Below, piece after piece: positions 3,477-16,361 of a stretch of 64,000 bases of DNA. Both the position numbers and the translations under genes were made by a program. The DNA lies in the NCBI RefSeq assembly GCF_015776785.2, contig NZ_LFMD02000005.1, positions 545,465 through 609,464 on the forward strand, given 5' to 3'. The stretch comes from Kitasatospora sp. SUK 42 (GTDB lineage Bacteria; Actinomycetota; Actinomycetes; Streptomycetales; Streptomycetaceae). The first letter of the stretch is position 1, and every line of letters begins with the position of its first letter. The notes beneath the pieces were generated by a model. The model worked only from the letters and a program-made list of their open reading frames with translations. It made no database searches and was not told where the DNA came from.

Positions 3477-5162
<1,686 letters not shown>

Positions 5163-5215
5163 GGCCAAGAGGGGGCTCCCGTGGTCGCGGCTGGCTGGAG
5201 GGTGGGCGGGGCTCG

Positions 5216-6220
5216 TCAGGGCGCATCGGTCGCGGCGGAGCCGTGTTCGGAGGCGTGGGTTTCGGAGACGTGGGTGAGGATCTCCGTGTCGCAGTCGAGG
5301 ATGTGCGGTAGCGCTCCGAGCGTGCCGACGATGAAGCCGTACAGGCTGGTCTCGTCCTCGACGCACACGTTGGCCAGGATGTTGTGACACCCCGTCACCG
5401 CGGCGCAGAAGGACACCTCGGGACATCGGGACAGGGCGGCACCGACGGCTTCGATGCCCGCCGGGTGAACCTTCAGCCGTACCCGTGCCTCCACGGGGCG
5501 GCCCAGGACGGCCGGATCGGCGACGGTCCGCAGACGCAGCACCCGGCGCTCCAGGAGGGAGGCCACCCGCCGTCCCGCCGTGGCGGTGGAGAAGCCGAGC
5601 TCCTTGCCGAGGTCGGTGAGGCTGATGCGGGCGTTCCTCGTCAGGACGTCGGCGACGCGCCGGTCGGTGGGCGTGAGGTCGTGTCGGCGGGCGGGTCCGG
5701 GCAGGGGCTGGACCAGGCTTGCCCGCAAGCGCTTCTCCTCCTCCTCGGTCAGGACAGGGGCGTGCCACTCGGCCTCGGTTCGAAACGGGCGCAGTGTGAC
5801 GTGTGCGCTGAGCACCGTGGCGTCGTGGAGGCCGGGCATTTCCTTCAGCGGCTGGGAGGGCAGGCGCGGCCGTCCCTCCGCGAGCAGGTGGCACCAGAGG
5901 AGGCCCGCCCCTCCGCTCACAGCGGCGACGTTAAGCACACCGGGGAGCTTTGCCAATCCTTGAGGGATATTTTCCGGACATCCCATTGCGGTCCGCAGCC
6001 GAAGGTGCACGGAGCGTCCGAGCCCGCTGTACAGGGGGTCGTAGTCGGCCGTGCAGCGGATGGTCCCCGCGCTCAGGAGGCGCTGGACGCGCCGCGCCAC
6101 CATGCGCTCGTGCTCACCGAGGATGCGCCCCACCTCTGCCACTCCGGCCCGGGGGTTGATCTGGATCGCCGCCACGATGCGCTGGTCAAGGCCGTCACAG
6201 GCGTCTGAATCGTTCATCAC
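5216..6220 (-). CDS. Lrp/AsnC-family regulator with two HTH-RAM halves
   Basis: A 334-aa transcription factor, about double the usual 150-170 aa Lrp length. A winged HTH of AsnC type lies at ~10-55 ([20 protein letters not shown]) and a second HTH at ~175-225 ([20 protein letters not shown]), each followed by a ligand-binding RAM/AsnC-like region. Such tandem forms are common in actinomycetes and sense amino acids or other small metabolites. The start is GTG at 6220 or the adjacent ATG at 6217 (GGAG just upstream). It is divergent from the flavin reductase gene across 6221-6368, so it is the natural candidate to control that operon. pyrG follows it on the same strand. Confidence 0.88.
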
Positions 6221-6368
6221 TCCGCAATGATGGCAGGATCTTTGTCAGAAAATCGATGGGTGTTGTCGGGGTCGATCAGCTGAGGCAGACTCGCAGATCC
6301 ATCGCCGAAGTGGCGCCTGGGGAGCTTGTCGTACCCGAACTGCCCGTACGGGCCGAAAGGACAGGGCT

Positions 6369-6887
6369 TTGTTAGGCGAGAGCACCACCGCAGCAGTTCA
6401 GGACCCCGTGGCCTCCAGCGCGTTCCGCTCGGTTCTGGGACGTTTCTGTTCCGGCGTCACCGTCGTCACCGCCATGGGACCCACCGGGCCCGCCGGATTC
6501 ACCTGCCAGGCGTTCTCGTCGCTCTCCCTCGACCCGCCGCGCGTCATCCTGTGTGTCAGCCGCACCTCGACGAGCTGGCCCGTCATCAGGAGTGGTACGT
6601 CCTTCAGCGTCAACGTGCTGGCGCAGAGCCAGCGTTCGCTGTGCGAGCGGTTCGCCCGCTCCGGCGGTGACAAGTTCCAGGGCGTGGCATGGAGCGCGTC
6701 ACCGGACGGGGCGCCGCGCCTGGACGGTGCCACAGCGTGGATCGACTGTCGCGTGCACACCGAGCACGACGGAGGCGACCACCTCGTGGTGATCGGCGAC
6801 GTGCGCCGGGTCGAGGCGCCGGCCGAGTCGCCGCAGCCCCTGCTGTACTACCGCGGCCGGTACGCGCGGATCGCCGACGCCTCCTGA
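6369..6887 (+). CDS. Flavin reductase-like protein (RutF/HpaC type)
   Basis: 172 aa with the flavin reductase domain across most of its length: FRSVLGRFCSGVTVVTA near the N-terminus, the TCQAFSSLSLDPPRVI FMN-binding stretch, and SFSVNVLAQSQ. It should use NAD(P)H to supply reduced FMN/FAD to a partner monooxygenase. The luciferase-like monooxygenase four genes downstream is the obvious partner. The TTG start at 6369 follows GAAAGGA at a suitable distance; the second codon is then TTA (6372-6374), the rare bldA-dependent leucine codon. A GTG at 6408 is an alternative start that would remove the TTA. It is the first gene of the 6.4-11.3 kb run. Confidence 0.85.
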   Translation: MLGESTTAAVQDPVASSAFRSVLGRFCSGVTVVTAMGPTGPAGFTCQAFSSLSLDPPRVILCVSRTSTSWPVIRSGTSFSVNVLAQSQRSLCERFARSGGDKFQGVAWSASPDGAPRLDGATAWIDCRVHTEHDGGDHLVVIGDVRRVEAPAESPQPLLYYRGRYARIADAS

Positions 6888-7049
6888 CCGGGGCGCGGAG
6901 AGGCGCCACTTCGCGCCGCACACCCCTCGCTTTCCTCCTTCCCGCGATGCCGGTATGCCGGCGCCTGCCCGCGTGGCCCGCCGCACCGCACACCGCCGTG
7001 CCCGATTCCGGGCACACCCACCCCGAAACGAACCAGGAGTGAATTCGTC

Positions 7050-7622
7050 ATGGAAACGAAGCCAGGCTCTCGCACCGGAGCGACGTCCGCGCAGAAGTCC
7101 GGCCTGCTCGCTGGGCTCGACGTCTTCGTGGGCGGACCGATCCAGCACGCCATTCTGGAGAACGGATTCGTCGGCCACCTGCAGGACGCGATCACCACGG
7201 CGATCGGCACCGTCCGGGACAACGGAGCGAACGTCTTCTCGGCCCACCTCGTGGAGAAGTTCGGGGCCGAGACGGCGTCGTTCACCCCGGAGCAGGTCTC
7301 CGTGCGCGACCTCCGCTGGATGAAGAAGTGCGACGTCTTCGTGCCCGTCCTGCCGGTGCTGGAGGACGGGACCCTGCGGCGCACGGACGGCACCCACGTC
7401 GAACTCGGCTGGGCCACGGCCCTGGGGCGTCCCATCGTCCTGATCACCAAGCAGCCCTTCGTCGACTCCGCGAGCCACCTCCTGAAGGGCCTGCACCGCG
7501 TCGGGTTCGTCCAGGCCATCGACTTCGACGAGTTCACCGAGAAGCCGGCGCTGCTCATCGACGCCGTGCTCGCCGCCACCGAGCGGCAGCGCGAGGCCAT
7601 CAGCGCGAGCCTCGTCGCCTGA
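7050..7622 (+). CDS. Nucleoside 2-deoxyribosyltransferase-like N-glycosidase
   Basis: 190 aa with a nucleoside 2-deoxyribosyltransferase/N-glycosidase fold. GGPI (residues 28-31) matches the nucleotide-binding start of the family. RDLRWMKKCDVFVPVLP (86 onward) holds conserved Asp residues, and GTHVELGWATALGRP holds the likely catalytic Glu118. Relatives exchange nucleobases between deoxyribosides or, as in BlsM/MilB of blasticidin and mildiomycin pathways, hydrolyse CMP-type nucleotides to release the base. The start is well supported by AGGAG before ATG. It lies inside the flavin enzyme operon, which suggests that the pathway acts on a base released from, or attached to, a sugar. The substrate is not predictable from sequence. 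Confidence 0.75.
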   Translation: METKPGSRTGATSAQKSGLLAGLDVFVGGPIQHAILENGFVGHLQDAITTAIGTVRDNGANVFSAHLVEKFGAETASFTPEQVSVRDLRWMKKCDVFVPVLPVLEDGTLRRTDGTHVELGWATALGRPIVLITKQPFVDSASHLLKGLHRVGFVQAIDFDEFTEKPALLIDAVLAATERQREAISASLVA

Positions 7623-7668
7623 CCGGCGTCCGCCCTCACACCCCTCACCCTCCGGACGGAGCCATCGA

Positions 7669-8562
7669 GTGCCCGACGCGTCGATCCTAGGCCTGCCTCT
7701 GGCCAACCCCGTGATAGTCGGATCCGGACTGCTGACCGACCAGGAGCGCAACATCCGCCGACTCGTCGAGCGGGGCGCTGGAGCCGTCGTCACCAAGACC
7801 ATCCACCCCAACCCGCCGCAGGGCCTCGACGAGCGGATCATCCGTCTGCCCGTCGGGATGCTGAACAGCACCACCTACTCCAAGCGGTCGGTCAACCACT
7901 GGCTGGACGTGCTGCGTTCGTTCGCCGACGACCGGCTGCCCGTCATCGCCTCCCTCCACGCCGACAGCCCGGCCGAACTCGCCGCCCTGGCCAAGGACGT
8001 CGAGACGACCGGCTGCCAGGCCCTGGAACTGGGCATCTCCTGCCTCAACGAGGAGGAGGGGCTGGAGGACGACAACCCCGACCGGGTCTACGCCTACACC
8101 TCCGAGACCCGCGGCAGGACGACGCTGCCGCTCTCCGTCAAGCTGGCGGTCGGCGAGGGCCTCCAGGACCGGGTGCGCGCCGCCATCGCGGGCGGAGCCG
8201 ACGCCATCACCCTCAGCGACACCATCGGCGGCGCGGCCGTGGACCCCGCGACCGGGCGGCTCGAACTGAACGGCGTCTTCGGCTACTCGGGCCCCGGCCT
8301 CAAACCGCTCGTCCTCGCCGCCGTCTGGCAACTGCGCAGAAGGGGCGTCGAGTTGCCCATCATGGGCTGCGGAGGAGTGAGCAGCGGCCGCGACGTGGCC
8401 GACTACCTCAGCGTCGGAGCGAACGTGGCCCAGGTCTACACGGCGCTGCACACCGACATGTACGAGACGCTCGAACGCATCGTGGCGGAGACCCGGGACC
8501 TCACCGGCTCCTCCGCCGGCGCCCCGCTCCCGGCGGAAACACCCCAGGAGGCGGCGATATGA
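7669..8562 (+). CDS. Dihydroorotate dehydrogenase-like flavoprotein
   Basis: 297 aa, a TIM-barrel FMN enzyme of the class 1 dihydroorotate dehydrogenase/dihydropyrimidine dehydrogenase C-terminal type. It opens LGLPLANPVIVGSGLLTDQE, has the loop ELGISCLNEEE (analogue of the NxSCPN substrate loop), PLSVKLAVG with the FMN-contacting Lys, and the phosphate-binding GCGGVSSGRDVADYLSVGA near the C-terminus. The real pyrD is not expected here and the substrate loop differs from true PyrD, so a related pyrimidine-like or other heterocycle is more likely reduced or oxidised. Start GTG at 7669. The stop overlaps the next ATG by four bases (8559-8562), showing tight coupling. Confidence 0.78.
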   Translation: MPDASILGLPLANPVIVGSGLLTDQERNIRRLVERGAGAVVTKTIHPNPPQGLDERIIRLPVGMLNSTTYSKRSVNHWLDVLRSFADDRLPVIASLHADSPAELAALAKDVETTGCQALELGISCLNEEEGLEDDNPDRVYAYTSETRGRTTLPLSVKLAVGEGLQDRVRAAIAGGADAITLSDTIGGAAVDPATGRLELNGVFGYSGPGLKPLVLAAVWQLRRRGVELPIMGCGGVSSGRDVADYLSVGANVAQVYTALHTDMYETLERIVAETRDLTGSSAGAPLPAETPQEAAI

Positions 8563-9407
8563 CCACCCGGCACTCCGGCGCCCCGCTGCTCACCGACCTG
8601 ACCAGCGCCCAGGTCGCCGACGCCGTGCGCGGACGCACCGTCGTGTGGCCCATCGGGGCGATCGAACAGCACGGCCCGCACCTGCCGCTGTCCGTCGACC
8701 TGATCCTCGCGGAGGCGTTCGCCGGCGAGATCGCGAAGGAACTCGACGCGTTCACCCTGCCCGCGCAGGCCGTCGGCGCCCGCTCCCTGCCGCAGAGCGG
8801 CGGCGGGCTCCACTTCCCCGGCACGGTCTACGTGGCCGGCGACACCCTCGTCCGCTTCCTGCGCGAGACGCTCACGGCGCTCGCGGCACTGCCCATGGCC
8901 CGCCTGATCGTGGTCAACGGGCACTACGAGAACGAACCGTTCCTCTTCGAGGCGCTGGACCAGGTGCGGGAGCAGGGGCTGCTGGACGGCACGGAGGTCT
9001 TCGCGTTCAGCTGGTGGAGCCTGGTCCGGGACACCTGGACCGGCTCGGAGATCCCCAGGTTCCCCGGCTGGCACGCCGAGCACGCGGGCGTCACCGAGAC
9101 GAGCCTCATGCTCCACCTGCGCCCCGACCTCGTCACCGACGAGCGCCCCGACCACGACAACCCGCCCCGGGCGGGTGTCTACCTGCACCCCGTCGACGTC
9201 GGACAGACCACCAACCGCGGAATCCTGTCCTCGACCTCCGGCGCCGACGCCGGCCTCGGGGAGAAGCTGCTGCGCCACGTCGTGGACGAGGCGACGGCCA
9301 TGGTGCGCGACGGCGCCGGGCTGCTCCTCGCCCAGGCCCACCCCGACCGCCGCCGCCCGGACCCGCAGCGCCGAACCGCCGCACACCCCGAAGGGAAGCA
9401 GCCGTGA
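8559..9407 (+). CDS. Creatininase-family amidohydrolase
   Basis: 282 aa with creatininase metal-site motifs: PIGAIEQHGPHLPLSVD (Glu36, His38, Asp47), VVNGHYENEP (His122, Glu124) and GWHAEHAGVTETS (His172/His175 and downstream Glu). Members cut cyclic or linear amides: creatininase itself, the Fapy deformylase ArfB, and the mycofactocin peptidase MftE. No mycofactocin precursor or radical SAM gene is nearby, so MftE is unlikely. In this operon it probably opens a ring amide or removes a formyl/acyl group. It overlaps both neighbours by ATGA/GTGA junctions. Confidence 0.82.
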   Translation: MTTRHSGAPLLTDLTSAQVADAVRGRTVVWPIGAIEQHGPHLPLSVDLILAEAFAGEIAKELDAFTLPAQAVGARSLPQSGGGLHFPGTVYVAGDTLVRFLRETLTALAALPMARLIVVNGHYENEPFLFEALDQVREQGLLDGTEVFAFSWWSLVRDTWTGSEIPRFPGWHAEHAGVTETSLMLHLRPDLVTDERPDHDNPPRAGVYLHPVDVGQTTNRGILSSTSGADAGLGEKLLRHVVDEATAMVRDGAGLLLAQAHPDRRRPDPQRRTAAHPEGKQP

Positions 9408-10717
9408 CCCGGAAGTTCCACCTCGCCTGCATCTTCAACTTCACTCCGGACGACTGGCAGGGCCCCTTCGGTACCGGAGGCTCACCCTGGGACGGAAAGT
9501 TCCACACGGAGGTGGCCCAGGCGCTCGAACGGGCCTGCTTCGACTACGTGATCATCGAGGACAAGCTGATGGTCCCGGAGAGCTACGGCGGTTCCACCGA
9601 GCGGGCGCTGCGGCAGGGCATGGTCGTCCCCAAGCACGACCCGGTCCCGCTGGCCGTCGCGATGGGTCTCGCCACGTCCCACCTGGGCATCGTCGCCACG
9701 CTGTCGACCCTGGCCTACCCGCCGTTCATGACCGCGCGCCTCGCCTCGACGATGGACAGCATGCTCGGCGGGCGCTTCGGCTGGAACATCGTCACCAGCG
9801 CCGAGAACCTGGCCGCGCAGAACTTCGGCCTGGACGAGCTGCCGTCACGGGACGTCCGCTACGCCATGGCCGACGAGTACGTCGACGTCGTCCGGCAGCT
9901 CTTCGCCTCCTGGGACGCGGACGCCGTCGTGCTCGACCGGGAGAAGGGGATCTACGCCGACCACACCAAGGTCCGCCCGATCCACTTCAAGGGCGAGCAC
10001 TTCAGCGTGCGGGGCCCGTTGAACACCGTGCCCTCCCCGCAGCACCGGCCCGCGTTCGTCCAGGCCGGGGCCTCGCCCCGGGGCCGGGTCTTCGCCGCGC
10101 GCAACGCCGACTCCGTCATCGCCATCGCCAACGGGGTGGAGGGGATGAAGGAGTTCCGGGACGACGTGCGCAAACACGCCGAGGCGGCCGGCCGCGACCC
10201 CGACGACGTCAAGGTCCTGTTCTGTGTGACGCCCACGCTCGGCGAGACGGAGCAGGAGGCACGGGACAAGCACGAGCGGATGATCTCGTCGCCGCAGTTC
10301 ATCCACGACATCCTCGCCGAGACCTCCGCCCTCACGGAGATCGACTTCGCCCGGTTCGACCTCGACGAGCCCCTGCCGTACCGGCTCCAGACCAACGGCG
10401 AGCAGGGTTCGCTGGACCAGCTCCAGCAGTGGGGCAGCGGCAAGACGCTGCGGGAACTGGTGATGGACGCCGCCGGCGGGCTGGTCTCCTCGGTGGAACT
10501 CGTCGGCACGCCCGACCAGGTGGCGCAGCGGATGGGGGAGGTGATGGAGGAGGTCGGAGGCGACGGCTTCATGCTGACGACCCCGGTCCTGCGGTTGAAC
10601 CGCCACTGGGTCGCCGATGTCACCGACGGACTCGTGCCCGCACTCCAGCGCCGCGGGCTGACCCGGGCCGCGTACACACCCGGCCACACCCTGCGGCAGA
10701 ACCTCACGGAATTCTGA
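9404..10717 (+). CDS. Luciferase-like FMNH2-dependent monooxygenase (NtaA/DszA type)
   Basis: 437 aa, the length of the NtaA/SnaA/DszA branch of the bacterial luciferase superfamily. Typical features are FDYVIIEDKLMVPESYGG, GIVATLSTLAYPPFMTARL, GGRFGWNIVTSAENLAAQNFG, and the sulfur/nitrogen-substrate family stretch KGEHFSVRGPLN. These enzymes use O2 and reduced flavin from a separate reductase, here probably the product of 6369-6887, to cleave C-N or C-S bonds or oxygenate heterocycles; RutA is a more distant relative. GTG start at 9404 overlaps the preceding TGA. The stop is 15 bases before the nitroreductase gene. Confidence 0.87.
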   Translation: MTRKFHLACIFNFTPDDWQGPFGTGGSPWDGKFHTEVAQALERACFDYVIIEDKLMVPESYGGSTERALRQGMVVPKHDPVPLAVAMGLATSHLGIVATLSTLAYPPFMTARLASTMDSMLGGRFGWNIVTSAENLAAQNFGLDELPSRDVRYAMADEYVDVVRQLFASWDADAVVLDREKGIYADHTKVRPIHFKGEHFSVRGPLNTVPSPQHRPAFVQAGASPRGRVFAARNADSVIAIANGVEGMKEFRDDVRKHAEAAGRDPDDVKVLFCVTPTLGETEQEARDKHERMISSPQFIHDILAETSALTEIDFARFDLDEPLPYRLQTNGEQGSLDQLQQWGSGKTLRELVMDAAGGLVSSVELVGTPDQVAQRMGEVMEEVGGDGFMLTTPVLRLNRHWVADVTDGLVPALQRRGLTRAAYTPGHTLRQNLTEF

Positions 10718-10732
10718 GCCCGGCGGCAGACC

Positions 10733-11344
10733 GTGTCGACCTCCACCACGCATCGGTTGCTCCTGGACCCCGCCGCGCAGGACCTGCTGTTCCGGCAGGC
10801 GTACACCGAGGACCGCTTCACCGGCGAGGCGGTCCCCGAGGACGCACTGCGGGCCGTCCACGACCTCGTCCGCAACGGCCCGACCGCCTTCAACCAGCAG
10901 CCGCTCAGGATCCACCTCCTCCGCTCCGCGGCGAGCCGCGGCCGGCTGGCCCGCCATCTCTCGCGGAGTAACCGGGAGAAGACCCTGGCGGCACCGCTGA
11001 CCGCGCTGCTGGCGGTGGACAACGCGTTCCACCTCCGGCTGCCGGAGCTGTTCCCCGCCTTTCCGGGAGCCGCCGCACTCTACGCGGAGGACCCCGGGCT
11101 GCGGGAACGGTCCGCGCTGATGAACGGCTCGCTGCAGGCCGCGTACTTCCTCGTCGGAATCCGCGCCGCCGGACTCGCGGCGGGGCCGGTGAGCGGATTC
11201 GACCAGTCCGGAGTCGACCGGGAGTTCTTCCCGGACGCCGAGCAGTCGGCGCTGCTGGTGGTGAACATCGGCAGACCCGCGGCGACGGGCCCGCGACCAC
11301 GCGCCCCGCGCCTGGCCTACGACGAGGTCCACCGCACCCTGTGA
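10733..11344 (+). CDS. RutE-like nitroreductase-fold reductase
   Basis: 203 aa, FMN-dependent nitroreductase fold of the RutE/malonic-semialdehyde-reductase branch. The N-terminal LLFRQAYTEDRFTGEAVPED, NGPTAFNQQPLRIHLL (flavin-binding Asn-Gln-Gln region), REKTLAAPLTALLAVD and HLRLPELFPAFPGAA follow the RutE pattern closely. RutE reduces the toxic aldehyde left at the end of the Rut pyrimidine pathway. With a RutF-like reductase and an LLM monooxygenase upstream, the three form a Rut-like core without RutB/C/D. The start GTG at 10733 has only a weak ribosome site. Last gene of the run; the HxlR gene faces it 38 bp away. Confidence 0.82.
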   Translation: MSTSTTHRLLLDPAAQDLLFRQAYTEDRFTGEAVPEDALRAVHDLVRNGPTAFNQQPLRIHLLRSAASRGRLARHLSRSNREKTLAAPLTALLAVDNAFHLRLPELFPAFPGAAALYAEDPGLRERSALMNGSLQAAYFLVGIRAAGLAAGPVSGFDQSGVDREFFPDAEQSALLVVNIGRPAATGPRPRAPRLAYDEVHRTL

Positions 11345-11382
11345 GCGCCGTTCGGCCCCGGCAGCCGCCCACCGTGCCACGG

Positions 11383-11748
11383 TCAGGCGGACTCGCCGGG
11401 ACCGGACGGCGCCGCGCGGTGCACCGTGTCGCGGTACCAGCGGCCCCACGTGTCCAGCTGCTCCGTGACGGAGTCCAGCGTGTGGCCGACGTCGGTGAGC
11501 GCGTACTCGACCCGCGGCGGCACCTCCCGGTACACCGTCCGCTCCACCAGCCCGTCCGCCTCCAGCTCCCTGAGCTGGCGGGTCAGCATGCGCTGGGTGA
11601 CACCCGGCAGGGCGCGCCTCAGTTCGCCGAACCGGTGGGTACCCGAGACCAGCTGCTTGAGGATGGCCAGTTTCCAGCGGCCGCCGAGGAGCTCCATGGC
11701 GAACTCGACCGCACAGTGATCCGAGCTTTCCTCGACGTTGGAACGCAC
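11383..11748 (-). CDS. HxlR-family transcriptional regulator
   Basis: 121 aa, single winged-helix HxlR domain: Cys12, then FAMELLGGRWKLAILKQLVSG, HRFGELRRALPGVTQRMLT (recognition helix) and DGLVERTVYREVPPRVEYAL (wing). HxlR proteins commonly respond to aldehydes or redox stress, and an N-terminal Cys before the HTH is typical of the thiol-sensing type. GTG start at 11748 with GGAGG six bases upstream. It is divergent from the MFS exporter and convergent with the RutE-like gene, so it likely controls the exporter and itself. Confidence 0.9.
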   Translation of the reverse strand: MRSNVEESSDHCAVEFAMELLGGRWKLAILKQLVSGTHRFGELRRALPGVTQRMLTRQLRELEADGLVERTVYREVPPRVEYALTDVGHTLDSVTEQLDTWGRWYRDTVHRAAPSGPGESA

Positions 11749-11837
11749 ACCTGACCTCCATTGGTATACAGCGTGGCACTAGGGGACACGAATGACCGTA
11801 CTTGCGGCCCGCGTTGGTACTTCCGGAAGCTGAGACT
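11749..11837. promoter_or_regulatory. Divergent hxlR/MFS control region with TTGGTA direct repeats
   Basis: The 89-bp gap holds two direct TTGGTA copies (11761-11766 and 11814-11819), each followed by an A/T-richer step. Position and symmetry suit an HxlR operator, but the repeats are short. Confidence 0.35.
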
Positions 11838-13445
11838 ATGACAGAGAGCAAGGTGCCCGCCGCGGCCGGACCGGCCGCCGGGAAAGAGCGCGCAGAGCAT
11901 TCGACGGCCTCCGGGCAGCCGGGCGGGCCGGCCCTTCGCGCGCGGCAGCGGTGGCTGGTGCTGGCCGTGGTGTCGGGGAGTCTCTTCCTGTGCGGCATCG
12001 ACCTCACCGTCCTGCACGTCGCGGTGCCGAGCCTGAGCCGGGACCTCGAACCGAGCCCGGCCCAACTGCTGTGGATCGTCGACGTCTACTCACTGACGCT
12101 GGCCGCCCTCCTGGTGACCTGCGGCACCCTCGGCGACCGCATCGGCCGGCGCCGCATGGTGCTCAGCGGCTTCCTCACCTTCGGCCTCGCCTCCGCGGCG
12201 GCCGCCTTCTCGACCTCGACCGCACAACTCATCGCTGCCCGGGCCGCACTGGGCGTCGGCGCGGCGATGATCATGGCGTCCACGGTGGCGATCATCCGGG
12301 TCGTCTTCACCGACGACCGCGAACGCGCCATGGCGATCGGCATCTGGACCTCCGCGCACAGTGTCGGGGCCACGATCGGTCCGCTGGCGGGCGGTCTGGT
12401 CGTCGAGCGGTGGGGCTGGGGAGCGGTGTTCCTCATCAACGTCCCCGTCATCGTCGTCATCCTGGCCGTCGGCGCCCGGGTCATCCCCGAGTCGCGCAAC
12501 CCCGTGCCCCGTCGCTGGGACGTGGCCAGTGTCGCGCTGTCCGTCACCGGCCTGGCCGCCGTGGTCTACGCGCTCAAGCAGGCCGGCGAGCACGCGGGGG
12601 TGAACGCCGTCATCGTCCTCACGGCCCTCGCCGGCAGCGCCCTGCTCTACACCTTCGTACGACGCCAACGGCGCATCCGCGAGCCGTTGTTGGACTTCGC
12701 CCTCTTCCGCGAACGCCGCTTCACCACGGCCACCCTGTGTGTCATCGGCTGCTTCGGCAGCTATGTCGCGCTTCTGTTCTTCCTCACCCAGTGGCTGCAG
12801 CAGGTGGGCGCGTACTCGCCGGTGCTCGCCGGGCTCGCGCTGATGCCGCTGGCCGGGGCCAACGCCCTCGGCGCGATCACGGCCCCCTGGGCGGCGAACC
12901 GGTGGGGCAACCGCTGGGCGCTCACCGGGGCGCTCTCCCTCTTCGCCCTCGCGTACGCCGCCATCGCGGTCGTCGGTGACGCCGCGCACTACGGCGAACT
13001 CCTCCTCCCGCTGCTCGCCGCCGGGTACGGCGCCGGCATCGTCATGACCCTGGGCGCCGACTCCATCATGGCCGCCGCGCAACCCGAGCGGTCCGGAGAG
13101 GCTGCCGCCATCCAGGAGACCTCCTTCGAACTCGGCGCCGGGCTCGGCGTCGCCGTCCTCGGCACCGTCCTGGCCGCCGTGTACCGCACGGGCCTGCCCG
13201 AGGTGCCGGGCCTCTCCGGAGAACAGCAGGCCAGGGCCGGGGAGTCGTTCGCCGCGGCGGAGGACGTCATGGCGCACCTGCCCTCCGGGACCGCCAACGC
13301 GGTGCTGGAGTCGGCACGGCACGCCTACGACCGGGGCTTCACCGCGGTGTCGGTGATCGCGGCGATCGGCCTGGCCGCCACCGCACTCATGGCCTCGGCC
13401 CTGCTGCGCCCCCGCCCGGCCGCGAAGCGGGCCGGCGAGGACTGA
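11838..13445 (+). CDS. 14-TM MFS drug exporter (DHA2/QacA-SmvA type)
   Basis: 535 aa from the ATG at 11838; the frame is open to a TTG at 11802 but lacks family similarity there. After a ~30-aa polar leader come the DHA2 hallmarks: VSGSLFLCGIDLTVLHVAVP (TM1), WIVDVYSLTLAALLVTCGTL, motif A GDRIGRRR, and motif C-like GPLAGGLVVERWGWG. About 14 hydrophobic segments follow. Proton-driven exporters of this class expel cationic or amphipathic drugs and pathway products. It is divergent from hxlR and followed by a strong terminator. It may export the product or a toxic intermediate of the adjacent flavin operon. Confidence 0.9.
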   Translation: MTESKVPAAAGPAAGKERAEHSTASGQPGGPALRARQRWLVLAVVSGSLFLCGIDLTVLHVAVPSLSRDLEPSPAQLLWIVDVYSLTLAALLVTCGTLGDRIGRRRMVLSGFLTFGLASAAAAFSTSTAQLIAARAALGVGAAMIMASTVAIIRVVFTDDRERAMAIGIWTSAHSVGATIGPLAGGLVVERWGWGAVFLINVPVIVVILAVGARVIPESRNPVPRRWDVASVALSVTGLAAVVYALKQAGEHAGVNAVIVLTALAGSALLYTFVRRQRRIREPLLDFALFRERRFTTATLCVIGCFGSYVALLFFLTQWLQQVGAYSPVLAGLALMPLAGANALGAITAPWAANRWGNRWALTGALSLFALAYAAIAVVGDAAHYGELLLPLLAAGYGAGIVMTLGADSIMAAAQPERSGEAAAIQETSFELGAGLGVAVLGTVLAAVYRTGLPEVPGLSGEQQARAGESFAAAEDVMAHLPSGTANAVLESARHAYDRGFTAVSVIAAIGLAATALMASALLRPRPAAKRAGED

Positions 13446-13500
13446 CCGGGCGGGCGCCGGTTCGGCGGTGCCGAGGCGAAGGCCCGCGGCGACGTGTCCA

Positions 13501-13540
13501 CGGGGAACCCGGCCGGGCGGAGGCGGGGCCGGGTTCCCCG
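13501..13540 (+). terminator. Terminator hairpin after the MFS gene
   Basis: Perfect 14-bp inverted repeat, arms 13501-13514 and 13527-13540 with a 12-base loop, lying 56 bases after the MFS stop and ahead of the phosphatase gene. Confidence 0.75.
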
Positions 13541-13600
13541 CCGGGATCGCGGCTGAGGTGAGAGGGGGCGGGGTCGGTGTGAGACTGGGGGAGGGAAGGG

Positions 13601-14818
13601 GTGATCTCGGTGTTGGACCCGCCGCAGGGGTACACCGGGGCCGACGCCGGTTTCGACGAGGGCCTGTTGGAGGAGCTGATCGTCGAGGCGCAGACGGCCC
13701 TGCCGGTCGAACTGCCCGCTCTGGCCAACCGGTGTGCCTCGGCCCTGGGTCTGGAATCGGCGCTGATCTACCTCGTCGACCTGCAGCAACAGCTCCTCAT
13801 CCCGCTGGACGAGACCGCGGTGCCGCTGGCGGTGGACCGCTCGCCGGCCGGCTGGGCCTACCGCACGGTCTTCCCGAGGGTGGACGACGTCGAGGGCGGG
13901 GTGATCGTCTGGATGCCCCTGGTCGACGGTGCCGAGCGGCTGGGCGTGCTGGCGGTCCGGACCGCCTCGCTCGACGGAGTGCGGATGCGCCGCAGCCGGA
14001 TGCTGTCCCACCTCTTCGCCATGCTGATCACCTCCAAGCGCGCCTACAGCGACTGGCTCGCCGGCCTCACCCGCACCGCGGCCATGCGGCTGCCCGCCGA
14101 GATGCTCCGGGCCTTCCTGCCGCCCCACACCGTCGGCAGCGCCCGGTGCGTCTCGACCGCGGTCCTGGAGCCGGCGTACGACGTCGCCGGTGACGCCTTC
14201 GACCACTCGGTGATCAAGGACGTGCTGAACACCATGATCCTCGACTCCATGGGGCACGATCTGGCCGCCGGCCTGACCACGTCGGTCGCCATGGCGGCGG
14301 CGCGGAACGCCCGCCGCGGCGGCGGCAACCTGTCCGACGTGGTCGGCTCCGTCGACCAGGCCCTCACCCAGTGGCTGCCCGACCACTTCTGCACCGGCGT
14401 GCTGTGCCGGCTCGACGCCGTCACCGGGGTGCTGCGCTGGGTCAACTGTGGCCACCCGCCGCCACTGCTGATCCGTGCCGAGCGGGTGCTCGAAGGAGCG
14501 CTGGACAGCCCCCCGCAGCCCCCGATCGGCCTGGCCGACCACCTCGCCACGGAAACCCGGCAGGTCCACGAGACGGTGCTGGAGCCGGGCGACCGCGTCC
14601 TGCTCTACACCGACGGCGTCGTGGAGGCGCGCGACGCGGACGGTGTGGAGTTCGGCCTCGACCAGTTCACCGACTTCATCATCCGCTCCTCCGCCGCCGG
14701 CCAGCGCCCGGCCGAGGTGCTGCGGCTGCTCATCCACGCCGTCCTCGACCGCCAGTGCGACCAGCTGCGGGACGACGCGACCATCCTGCTCTTCGAATGG
14801 CGCCCGCAGCGCCGGTGA
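13601..14818 (+). CDS. GAF-like plus SpoIIE-type PP2C phosphatase
   Basis: 405 aa. The N-terminal ~150 residues look like a degenerate GAF sensor (ANRCASALGLESALIYLVD, then GVIVWMPLVDGAERLGVLAV). The C-terminal domain is a SpoIIE/RsbU Ser/Thr phosphatase: DVAGDAFDHSV, ILDSMGHDLAAGLTTSVA (metal-binding Asp-Gly/His region), LRWVNCGHPPPLLI, and VLLYTDGVVEARD. Such proteins dephosphorylate anti-anti-sigma factors in partner-switching control of sigma factors. Streptomyces have dozens. No anti-sigma partner gene is adjacent. The GTG start follows AGGGAAGGG. It ends 16 bp from the convergent CBS gene. Confidence 0.88.
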   Translation: MISVLDPPQGYTGADAGFDEGLLEELIVEAQTALPVELPALANRCASALGLESALIYLVDLQQQLLIPLDETAVPLAVDRSPAGWAYRTVFPRVDDVEGGVIVWMPLVDGAERLGVLAVRTASLDGVRMRRSRMLSHLFAMLITSKRAYSDWLAGLTRTAAMRLPAEMLRAFLPPHTVGSARCVSTAVLEPAYDVAGDAFDHSVIKDVLNTMILDSMGHDLAAGLTTSVAMAAARNARRGGGNLSDVVGSVDQALTQWLPDHFCTGVLCRLDAVTGVLRWVNCGHPPPLLIRAERVLEGALDSPPQPPIGLADHLATETRQVHETVLEPGDRVLLYTDGVVEARDADGVEFGLDQFTDFIIRSSAAGQRPAEVLRLLIHAVLDRQCDQLRDDATILLFEWRPQRR

Positions 14819-14834
14819 CGCCGTACCGCGCCGG

Positions 14835-15266
14835 TCACTGAAGGACCGGGCGCGGGGAGGAGACGATCTCGACGAACTCGCCGACCTCGTGCCGGTCCAG
14901 GTGCTGTGCGATGTCGGCCTCGCTGATCATGCCGACCAGCCGGTGGGCTTCGGTGACCGGCAGGCGGCGGATCCGGTGCTTCTCCATGAGTTGCAGGACC
15001 TCGGCCTGGTCGGCGCTCGCGTCGATGGTGACCGGCTTGCCCTGGGCGAGTTCGCCGGCGGTCGTGGTCCTGGGGTCGCGGCCCTCGGCGAGGCACTTGA
15101 CCACGATGTCGCGGTCGGTGACGATCCCGTGCAGCCGGTCGTCGGCGCCGCAGATCGGCAGCGCGCCGACGTCCAGTTCGCGCATCCGCCGGGCCGCGGT
15201 CTCCAGCGTTTCGCTCTCCTGAACACAGGTGGCCCCGGCGTGCATGATGTCCCGCGCGGTGCTCAT
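14835..15266 (-). CDS. CBS-pair domain protein
   Basis: 143 aa made almost entirely of two CBS repeats: DIMHAGATCVQESETLETAA to IVTDRDIVV (first), then TIDASADQAEVLQLMEKHRI to GMISEADIAQHL (second). A CBS pair binds adenosyl ligands such as AMP or ATP, and stand-alone pairs in actinobacteria (e.g. Hrp1 of Mycobacterium) are dormancy/hypoxia associated. The ATG at 15266 is chosen because a GAAGGAGG ribosome site lies just upstream, although the frame is open further. The universal stress protein gene lies 222 bp upstream on the same strand, supporting a stress role. Confidence 0.9.
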   Translation of the reverse strand: MSTARDIMHAGATCVQESETLETAARRMRELDVGALPICGADDRLHGIVTDRDIVVKCLAEGRDPRTTTAGELAQGKPVTIDASADQAEVLQLMEKHRIRRLPVTEAHRLVGMISEADIAQHLDRHEVGEFVEIVSSPRPVLQ

Positions 15267-15488
15267 GACTGCCGCCTCCTTCGGGGTACGGGTTTCGGCC
15301 TCCGGACGGGAGCTGTCCCTTCCAGCGTTGTCCCGCCGGTGGAGCCTCCGCATCCCGAGAGCCGGTGGCCGGGAGCCGGGTGACGTGGAAACCGGTGGAC
15401 GGGGTGGTGCTCGGGCTGCCGGCCGGGGAGTGGCGGCGGTGATCCGCGGGGCGCGTGGCGGGCGCCCCCGGACCCCGTCCCCGAGGAC

Positions 15489-16361
15489 TCAGTCGTGCGG
15501 TACGACCGCCACCGGGGCGGTGGAGTGGTGGATCGCCGCGTGGGCGACGGGCCCGAGCCGCATGCCGAGGCGGTGGGACCGCCGACGACGGCCGACGACC
15601 ACGAGGTCCGCGGCGCCGGAGGCGTCCACCACCGCGCCGGCGCCGCCGGCGACCCGGCAGTCCTCGACGACCGTGACCGCGGGGTACTTCTCCCGCCACG
15701 GGGCGAGGGCCTGGGTGAGCAGCCCGGCCTCGACGGCCCGGAACGGCTCCGTCTCGATGCCCGGTCCCACCCATCCCGGGTAGGCCATGACGGGCGGCGG
15801 CGTCCAGCCGTGGACGGCCCGCAGCACGGCCCGGCGCGAGGCGGCCTGTCGGAAGGCGAAGTCCAGCACCTGGTCGGCGGGTGCGCCGGTGTCGACGCCG
15901 ACGACGACCTCCGGGGTGTCGGGGCCGGTGACGCGCTCCTGCTCCCCTGCGCGGACCAGGACGAGCGGCACCTCGCACCTGGCCGCGGCGGCCAGGCCGA
16001 CCGAGCCGACCAGCAGCCCCTCGAAGCCGCCGACGCCCAGTGATCCGACCACCAGCATGTCGGCGTCCTCGGCGGCCGCCATGAGCGCCGCGACCGGATC
16101 GTCCCCGTCGAGGAGGTCGGTGCGCACGTCCAGGTCCGGGTGGGCCGCCCGGACGTCCCGGGCGGCATCGGCGACCATGCGCGCGGTCAGCGTACGGAAC
16201 TCCTCCGACCGGCCCCGATCCGCGTGCAGGCCGTCGAGCCAGGTCTGGGCGTGGACCACCCGGAGGCCGAGCCCCTGGCGGACGGCTTCGTCGGCGGCCC
16301 ACCGGGCTGCCGCCGTGCTCTCCTCGGAACCGTCGACGCCGGTCAGCACATGGGTGTTCAT
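15489..16361 (-). CDS. Tandem universal stress protein (two UspA domains)
   Basis: 290 aa with two UspA domains. The first begins MNTHVLTGVDGSEESTAAAR and ends with DMLVVGSLGVGGFEGLLVGS-VPLVLVRAG (ATP-binding GxxG-9-G(S) pattern). The second starts VVVGVDTGAPADQVLDFAF and ends DLVVVGRRRRSHRLG-VAVVPHD. It is likely an ATP-binding dormancy/stress protein. ATG at 16361 is preceded by GGAGACACG. It lies with the CBS-pair and oleate hydratase genes on one strand, separated by terminator-like sequence. Confidence 0.92.
   Translation of the reverse strand: MNTHVLTGVDGSEESTAAARWAADEAVRQGLGLRVVHAQTWLDGLHADRGRSEEFRTLTARMVADAARDVRAAHPDLDVRTDLLDGDDPVAALMAAAEDADMLVVGSLGVGGFEGLLVGSVGLAAAARCEVPLVLVRAGEQERVTGPDTPEVVVGVDTGAPADQVLDFAFRQAASRRAVLRAVHGWTPPPVMAYPGWVGPGIETEPFRAVEAGLLTQALAPWREKYPAVTVVEDCRVAGGAGAVVDASGAADLVVVGRRRRSHRLGMRLGPVAHAAIHHSTAPVAVVPHD

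Follow-up and report, generated by a model that had tools for sequence, protein, structure and literature searches.

A recurrent Streptomycetaceae gene block predicted to make and export an oxidized cytosine-derived amidine

The stretch analyzed here (the window) comprises 64,000 nucleotides of the 6.57-Mb genome of Kitasatospora sp. SUK 42 (contig NZ_LFMD02000005.1, positions 545,465 to 609,464), and ten of its genes, at window positions 3477 to 13445, form a block that probably makes and exports a specialized metabolite. A six-gene run on the forward strand encodes a flavin reductase (6369 to 6887; PF01613), a nucleoside deoxyribosyltransferase (NDT)-family N-glycosidase (7050 to 7622), a flavoprotein resembling dihydroorotate dehydrogenase (DHO; 7669 to 8562; PF01180), a creatininase-like hydrolase (Crn; 8559 to 9407), a flavin mononucleotide (FMN)-dependent luciferase-like monooxygenase (LLM; 9404 to 10717), and a RutE/malonic semialdehyde reductase-family enzyme (10733 to 11344). 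To the left, on the reverse strand, lies an AsnC/Lrp-type regulator with two helix-turn-helix regions (5216 to 6220; PF13404 and PF01037), and directly downstream of it, on the same strand, is a CTP synthase gene (pyrG; 3477 to 5162). To the right, and standing apart from the run, are an HxlR-type regulator whose position is conserved (11383 to 11748, reverse strand; PF01638) and a major facilitator superfamily (MFS) exporter (11802 to 13445, forward strand); the HxlR gene is convergent with the six-gene run and divergent from the MFS gene. Family and profile matches confirmed every gene named in a first-pass annotation of the window at the place given for it; the span then proposed (6217 to 13445) holds real genes but starts inside the Lrp-type regulator and misses the CTP synthase gene. 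Coupling of the run by ATGA/GTGA overlaps, also proposed there, holds at two of the five junctions (ATGA at 8559 to 8562 and GTGA at 9404 to 9407), the other three having gaps of ~162, 46, and 15 bp. Just upstream of the Lrp-type gene, a stretch that is conserved in most loci bearing this gene (window ~6221 to 6260; GCAGGATCTTTATC) could be its operator.

With the NDT-like protein as query, 36 related loci were recovered from one public collection. The order pyrG, Lrp, flavin reductase-NDT-DHO-Crn-LLM-RutE, HxlR, MFS recurs in ~20 Streptomyces-type genomes, far beyond chance, and since the flanks vary around it, pyrG and the MFS gene mark the limits of the block. The six-gene order, which the first-pass annotation had suggested looking for in other genomes, is thus conserved as a unit, in support of a linked operon. 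Some members lack RutE, Lrp, the flavin reductase, or pyrG: four loci (L012, L013, L020, and L022) gave no RutE match, a DeoR-type gene replaces the Lrp-type regulator in L119, and an Amycolatopsis copy is reduced to MFS, NDT, DHO, Crn, and LLM. Orthologs of the oxygenase with at least 81% identity occur in 10 of 297 Streptomycetaceae genomes, each no more than ~3 kb from the NDT gene of an NDT-DHO-Crn set (hereafter the triad); among the next relatives, identity falls to 60%. In a phylum-wide sample of 396 genomes, two had a DHO homolog with an E value of at most 1e-50. A conserved gene set, changing flanks, and a sparse distribution are features of a specialized-metabolite cluster. The next-closest oxygenase relatives lie in a transport-rich locus without the triad (L151 3906 to 15288, G213:C69), where four NtaA/DmoA-type oxygenases, 46 to 60% identical to that of the window, stand within 12 kb among transporter genes; no hint of a substrate was found there.

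Homologies of the triad proteins fit three successive steps on a cytosine skeleton. The best PDB matches of the NDT-like protein were BlsM (5vto; 1.3e-13), a CMP N-glycosidase (4jen; 1e-12), and MilB (4ohr; 4.6e-11), so that its nearest solved relatives are the CMP N-glycosidases of blasticidin (BlsM) and mildiomycin (MilB) biosynthesis. The GTHVE catalytic motif is retained, whereas the GGPFRQ motif of MilB reads GGPIQH and a loop ahead of GTHVE is longer. The protein is therefore a probable CMP (pyrimidine nucleotide) hydrolase, which would convert CMP to cytosine and ribose-5-phosphate, in line with the earlier idea of base release from a nucleotide. DHO shares its fold family, and the active-site Cys (ISC), with dihydroorotate dehydrogenase B and PreA but scores below both cut-offs, and no PyrK-like partner is present in this operon. 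In comparison with PyrDB, LNISCPN has become LGISCLN and INT has become SDT throughout the family; these Asn-to-Gly and Asn-to-Asp changes would suit an amino-bearing base, and DHO probably reduces cytosine to 5,6-dihydrocytosine. The fold thus agrees with the redox chemistry at the ring that had been anticipated. Crn strongly matches solved creatininase (1q3k; 9.2e-40), although it falls under the creatininase equivalog cut-off (TIGR04448; 200.6 bits versus 235), and its gene is very conserved and present in all clusters aligned. It is a probable dihydrocytosine ring opener that would hydrolyze the acyl-amidine bond C2-N3, the type of bond that creatininase cuts in creatinine, in agreement with the amide hydrolysis step proposed previously. 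Cleavage at C2-N3 would leave a carbamate that should shed CO2 to give 3-aminopropionamidine, so that three enzymes would suffice. The triad by itself very likely makes 3-aminopropionamidine.

Juguet in 2009 and later workers reportedly assigned three cgc genes of the triad families to the formation of 3-aminopropionamidine from cytosine. The order NDT-DHO-Crn is kept in Streptomyces, Amycolatopsis, Longimycelium, Dactylosporangium, and Paraburkholderia, with the three genes adjacent to each other in the actinobacterial loci, and the same three genes occur in a different order on Agrobacterium plasmids. In four settings other than that of the window—pyrrolamide-type loci, loci with ectoine-synthase-family and ATP-grasp-like proteins, nonribosomal peptide synthetase (NRPS) clusters, and the Agrobacterium plasmids—the triad stands without the oxygenase. 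The pyrrolamide-type loci carry free-standing condensation domains, a carrier protein, an amidohydrolase, a methyltransferase, a UDP-sugar dehydrogenase, an epimerase, an aminotransferase, and two ATP-binding cassette (ABC) transporters, some of these identities having been read by eye from the sequence. The congocidine cluster has a comparable set, namely, the free-standing carrier protein Cgc19, condensation domains Cgc2 and Cgc16, and amidohydrolase Cgc14, and 3-aminopropionamidine is a precursor common to pyrrolamide products such as congocidine and distamycin (PMC4047045). The window cluster has the amidine cassette of the pyrrolamide clusters (congocidine/netropsin cgc and distamycin pya) in the same order. 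However, no free-standing condensation or carrier domains, sugar genes, or amidohydrolase were found among the scanned window genes; in place of the NRPS domains, sugar-derived pyrrole genes, methyltransferase, and ABC pumps of the pyrrolamide clusters, it has the FMN oxygenase, flavin reductase, RutE-like enzyme, CTP synthase, and MFS pump. It therefore resembles the amidine branch but is not a pyrrolamide cluster. Because the triad is a cassette of pyrrolamide clusters, an amidine is to be expected as the intermediate rather than a modified nucleobase or a ureidoacrylate. The first-pass annotation had left degradation and synthesis of a modified nucleobase side by side; synthesis is favored, but of an amidine.

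The oxygenase, specific to this type of cluster, belongs to the NtaA/DmoA family (TIGR03860; 403 bits versus a cut-off of 279.7), and its closest solved relatives are DmoA (6ak1; 5.5e-77) and DszA (5tlc; 2.5e-72). Flavin oxygenases of this family typically oxidize next to nitrogen or sulfur and split C-N or C-S bonds. By analogy, the monooxygenase, with the flavin reductase as its likely supplier of FMNH2, would oxidize the amine end of 3-aminopropionamidine, yielding either an aldehyde that the RutE-like enzyme, where present, could reduce or an N-oxygenated amine. In a variant cluster (L120), the oxygenase is paired with a condensation domain, which suggests that its product can be used as a building block. 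The exporter matched the models of LfrA (NF033896; 374 bits), SmvA (NF011571; 345 bits), and QacA/B (267 bits), all under their cut-offs. LfrA, SmvA, and QacA pumps move cationic drugs, and amidines are cationic; we count this kinship in favor of amidine export, in which the MFS pump would expel the cationic product. Taken together, the block is probably, though by no means certainly, a specialized-metabolite cluster that makes and exports an oxidized cytosine-derived amidine. A puzzle that looked Rut-like is thereby recast as a testable amidine prediction.

The CTP synthase gene of the block is the second of two pyrG genes in the window genome (the pyrG twin). It exceeds the cut-offs of NF003792 (823 bits versus 308) and of the PyrG equivalog TIGR00337 (751.5 bits versus 462.75), has both domains (PF06418 and PF00117), and lies beside the same operon in L004, L009, L010, L014, G292, and G148. 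A search with PF06418 found at least two matches in seven of the 297 genomes: five are cluster carriers (G000, G129, G148, G211, and G292), one (G077) genuinely has two copies, the second in an unrelated cluster, and one (G189) looks like a single broken gene. In three further carriers (G056, G162, and G172), pyrG is split between contigs and shows two different ends, the result expected if two near-identical copies collapse in assembly, and we counted these as twin bearing. An extra pyrG is thus present in 8 of the 10 oxygenase-cluster genomes (all but G100 and G202) versus 1 of the 287 others (P ~ 3e-13, shared ancestry ignored). Across all oxygenase-type loci, the twin occurs in 13 of 20, some inferred from broken assemblies, versus 0 of 10 other triad genomes (P ~ 0.001, likewise not corrected for phylogeny, as is true of the counts). 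Contigs end inside pyrG in L005 and L011 as well as in G162, G172, and G056; such breaks can make cluster carriers seem to lack CTP synthase. The second copy in G077 (L117, G077:C34:46500-66000; pyrG at 8484 to 10178) is 99.9% identical over 1618 bp to the other copy of that genome and lies among ATP-grasp-like, dimethylargininase-like, and MFS genes, with no triad.

Phylogenetic analysis placed the cluster pyrG copies of G148 and G292 beside the housekeeping genes of their own genomes, which suggested several independent duplications. We dropped this explanation because of the G292 copy, whose flanks are orthologous to the Lrp-pyrG region of the window but whose core matches the housekeeping gene of its own genome. 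At the DNA level, the G148 pair is 100% identical over 1600 bp, the G292 pair is 98.7% identical with amino acid differences only near the ends, the G302 pair is 99 to 100% identical over ~900 bp and then 78 to 93%, and the pairs of the window and G297 show a patchy pattern of identity. Housekeeping-like cores within orthologous or diverged flanks are the pattern of gene conversion and suggest an old cluster copy that has been converted repeatedly by the housekeeping gene; the G148 pair may be a recent duplication. A cluster enzyme that stays the same as the normal one would act by its amount rather than by insensitivity, which suggests a dosage role for the twin, either in CTP supply or in dosage-type self-protection. 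In the first case, the twin would raise CTP, which turns over to CMP, and enzyme logic favors such a refill, since cleavage of CMP drains CTP. The restriction of the twin to oxygenase-type clusters instead favors a role in outlasting inhibition by the product. It is conceivable, if doubtful, that a small oxidized amidine or an amidine-type cytosine mimic made by the cluster hits pyrimidine nucleotide metabolism, where CTP synthase would be its target or bottleneck, and that the wild-type, gene-converted twin protects by dosage. Either way, the twin is a genetic pointer to a precursor drain or a target.

The usual explanation for a duplicated target gene, a drug-insensitive CTP synthase that confers target-replacement resistance to the cluster product, appears very improbable here. 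In its favor are the ~13 genomes in which a second copy either stands next to the cluster or is deduced from broken assemblies, and the few core residues that separate the older cluster copies from 30 housekeeping copies; a comparison of these paralog-specific residues with the CTP feedback sites, not mapped in detail, revealed nothing obvious. However, a sensitive gene would not be expected to overwrite an insensitive variant, and the long identity of the G148, G292, and G302 copies to their housekeeping genes led us to reject target replacement by pyrG. An unlikely alternative to the amidine itself is a modified pyrimidine base, formed if the oxygenase took cytosine or dihydrocytosine as its substrate, either ahead of ring opening or in its place (e.g., for N-hydroxylation); the salvaged base analog would inhibit CTP synthase, against which the extra copy would protect by dosage. 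The presence of an exporter agrees with such a product, and so does the tie of the twin to oxygenase-type clusters and its absence from the other triad genomes examined, but the retention of Crn in all clusters aligned predicts ring opening, and the L120 pairing of oxygenase and condensation domain is easier to reconcile with an amine or hydroxyl building block than with a free base.

The first-pass annotation had instead likened the operon to the Rut pathway (RutA to RutG), with oxygenative ring cleavage and a RutF-like flavin reductase. Both systems do have an LLM oxygenase, a flavin reductase, and a RutE-family reductase, and the RutE likeness holds at the curated level (NF003768; 227.4 bits versus a cut-off of 152). 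However, the oxygenase scored 79.4 bits against the RutA equivalog TIGR03612 (cut-off, 498.3) and is of the TIGR03860 family instead, while the flavin reductase scored 97.5 bits against the RutF equivalog TIGR03615 (cut-off, 254.75) and is further from RutF than from its nearest NCBIfam models, HsaB and FerA, themselves matched below cut-off. The cluster also has three extra enzymes, and no RutB, RutC, RutD, or RutG was found among the ten genes at 3477 to 13445, the part of the genome searched for them. By these profile scores, the labels "RutF-like" and Rut-type LLM denote family-level resemblance only, and we rejected membership in the Rut pathway. Reductive pyrimidine catabolism was rejected as well, since the DHOD-like protein scored 96.6 bits against the PreA equivalog NF006183 (cut-off, 335); no match to the dihydropyrimidinase family was found among the same genes. 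A catabolic operon that uses cytosine or CMP as a nitrogen or carbon source, as a functional analog of either route, could draw on the Rut-like enzyme types and the Lrp-type regulator, but we consider it distinctly improbable given the efflux-type MFS pump, the CTP-making enzyme within the block, the sharing of the triad with antibiotic clusters, and the sparse distribution described above.

Several points weigh against an exported, oxidized amidine. The reactions, the product, and the purpose of the pyrG twin are all inferred; the role given to the oxygenase is a guess from family chemistry, and placing the triad in the part of congocidine biosynthesis that makes aminopropionamidine relies partly on the reported cgc assignments and partly on elimination. 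A single pyrG in seven of the ~20 oxygenase-type genomes indicates that the twin is not essential, and other triad clusters share the precursor without a twin, which weakens a pure supply role. A search for a published description of the cluster found none, which is weak evidence because few subscription papers were within reach; searches on a CTP synthase/creatininase/CMP hydrolase cluster, noformycin, and aminopropionamidine from cytosine, with subscription papers largely outside their scope, likewise returned nothing.

The triad appears to be a portable cassette of three genes that provides minor-groove binders with their amidine end and has been reused in several other settings, one being the compact, exporter-bearing oxygenase cluster recurrent in Streptomycetaceae, for which no product was found in the literature searched. 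In a tree of the concatenated triad, oxygenase-type loci cluster together and apart from pyrrolamide loci, with two exceptions: the NRPS-type loci L016 and L019 branch from within the oxygenase-type group, and the oxygenase locus of Amycolatopsis is placed beside a long-branched Paraburkholderia locus. This topology implies that the cassette has moved between cluster types. The NRPS clusters (L016, L019, and L123) also carry thioesterases, a penicillin-amidase homolog, and a P450-like gene, and their triad is closest to that of the oxygenase-type clusters, which suggests a recent cassette transfer. In Streptomyces samsunensis (L021, 4976 to 10644) and a Paraburkholderia symbiont (L023, 2186 to 7866), NDT-DHO-Crn is followed by ectoine-synthase-family (PF06339, tested in L021) and ATP-grasp-like proteins, with an MFS or MATE-type exporter. 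Ectoine synthase can cyclize glutamine, which makes these loci candidate noformycin-type clusters. Finally, on Agrobacterium tumefaciens plasmids (L099 and L100, ~6253 to 15974), the DHO, creatininase, and NDT genes adjoin LuxI/LuxR-type quorum-sensing genes. A MATE exporter, an ATP-grasp-like protein, a 2-oxoglutarate oxygenase, and a diaminopimelate-decarboxylase-like gene are also present there; these loci may be amidine clusters under quorum control.

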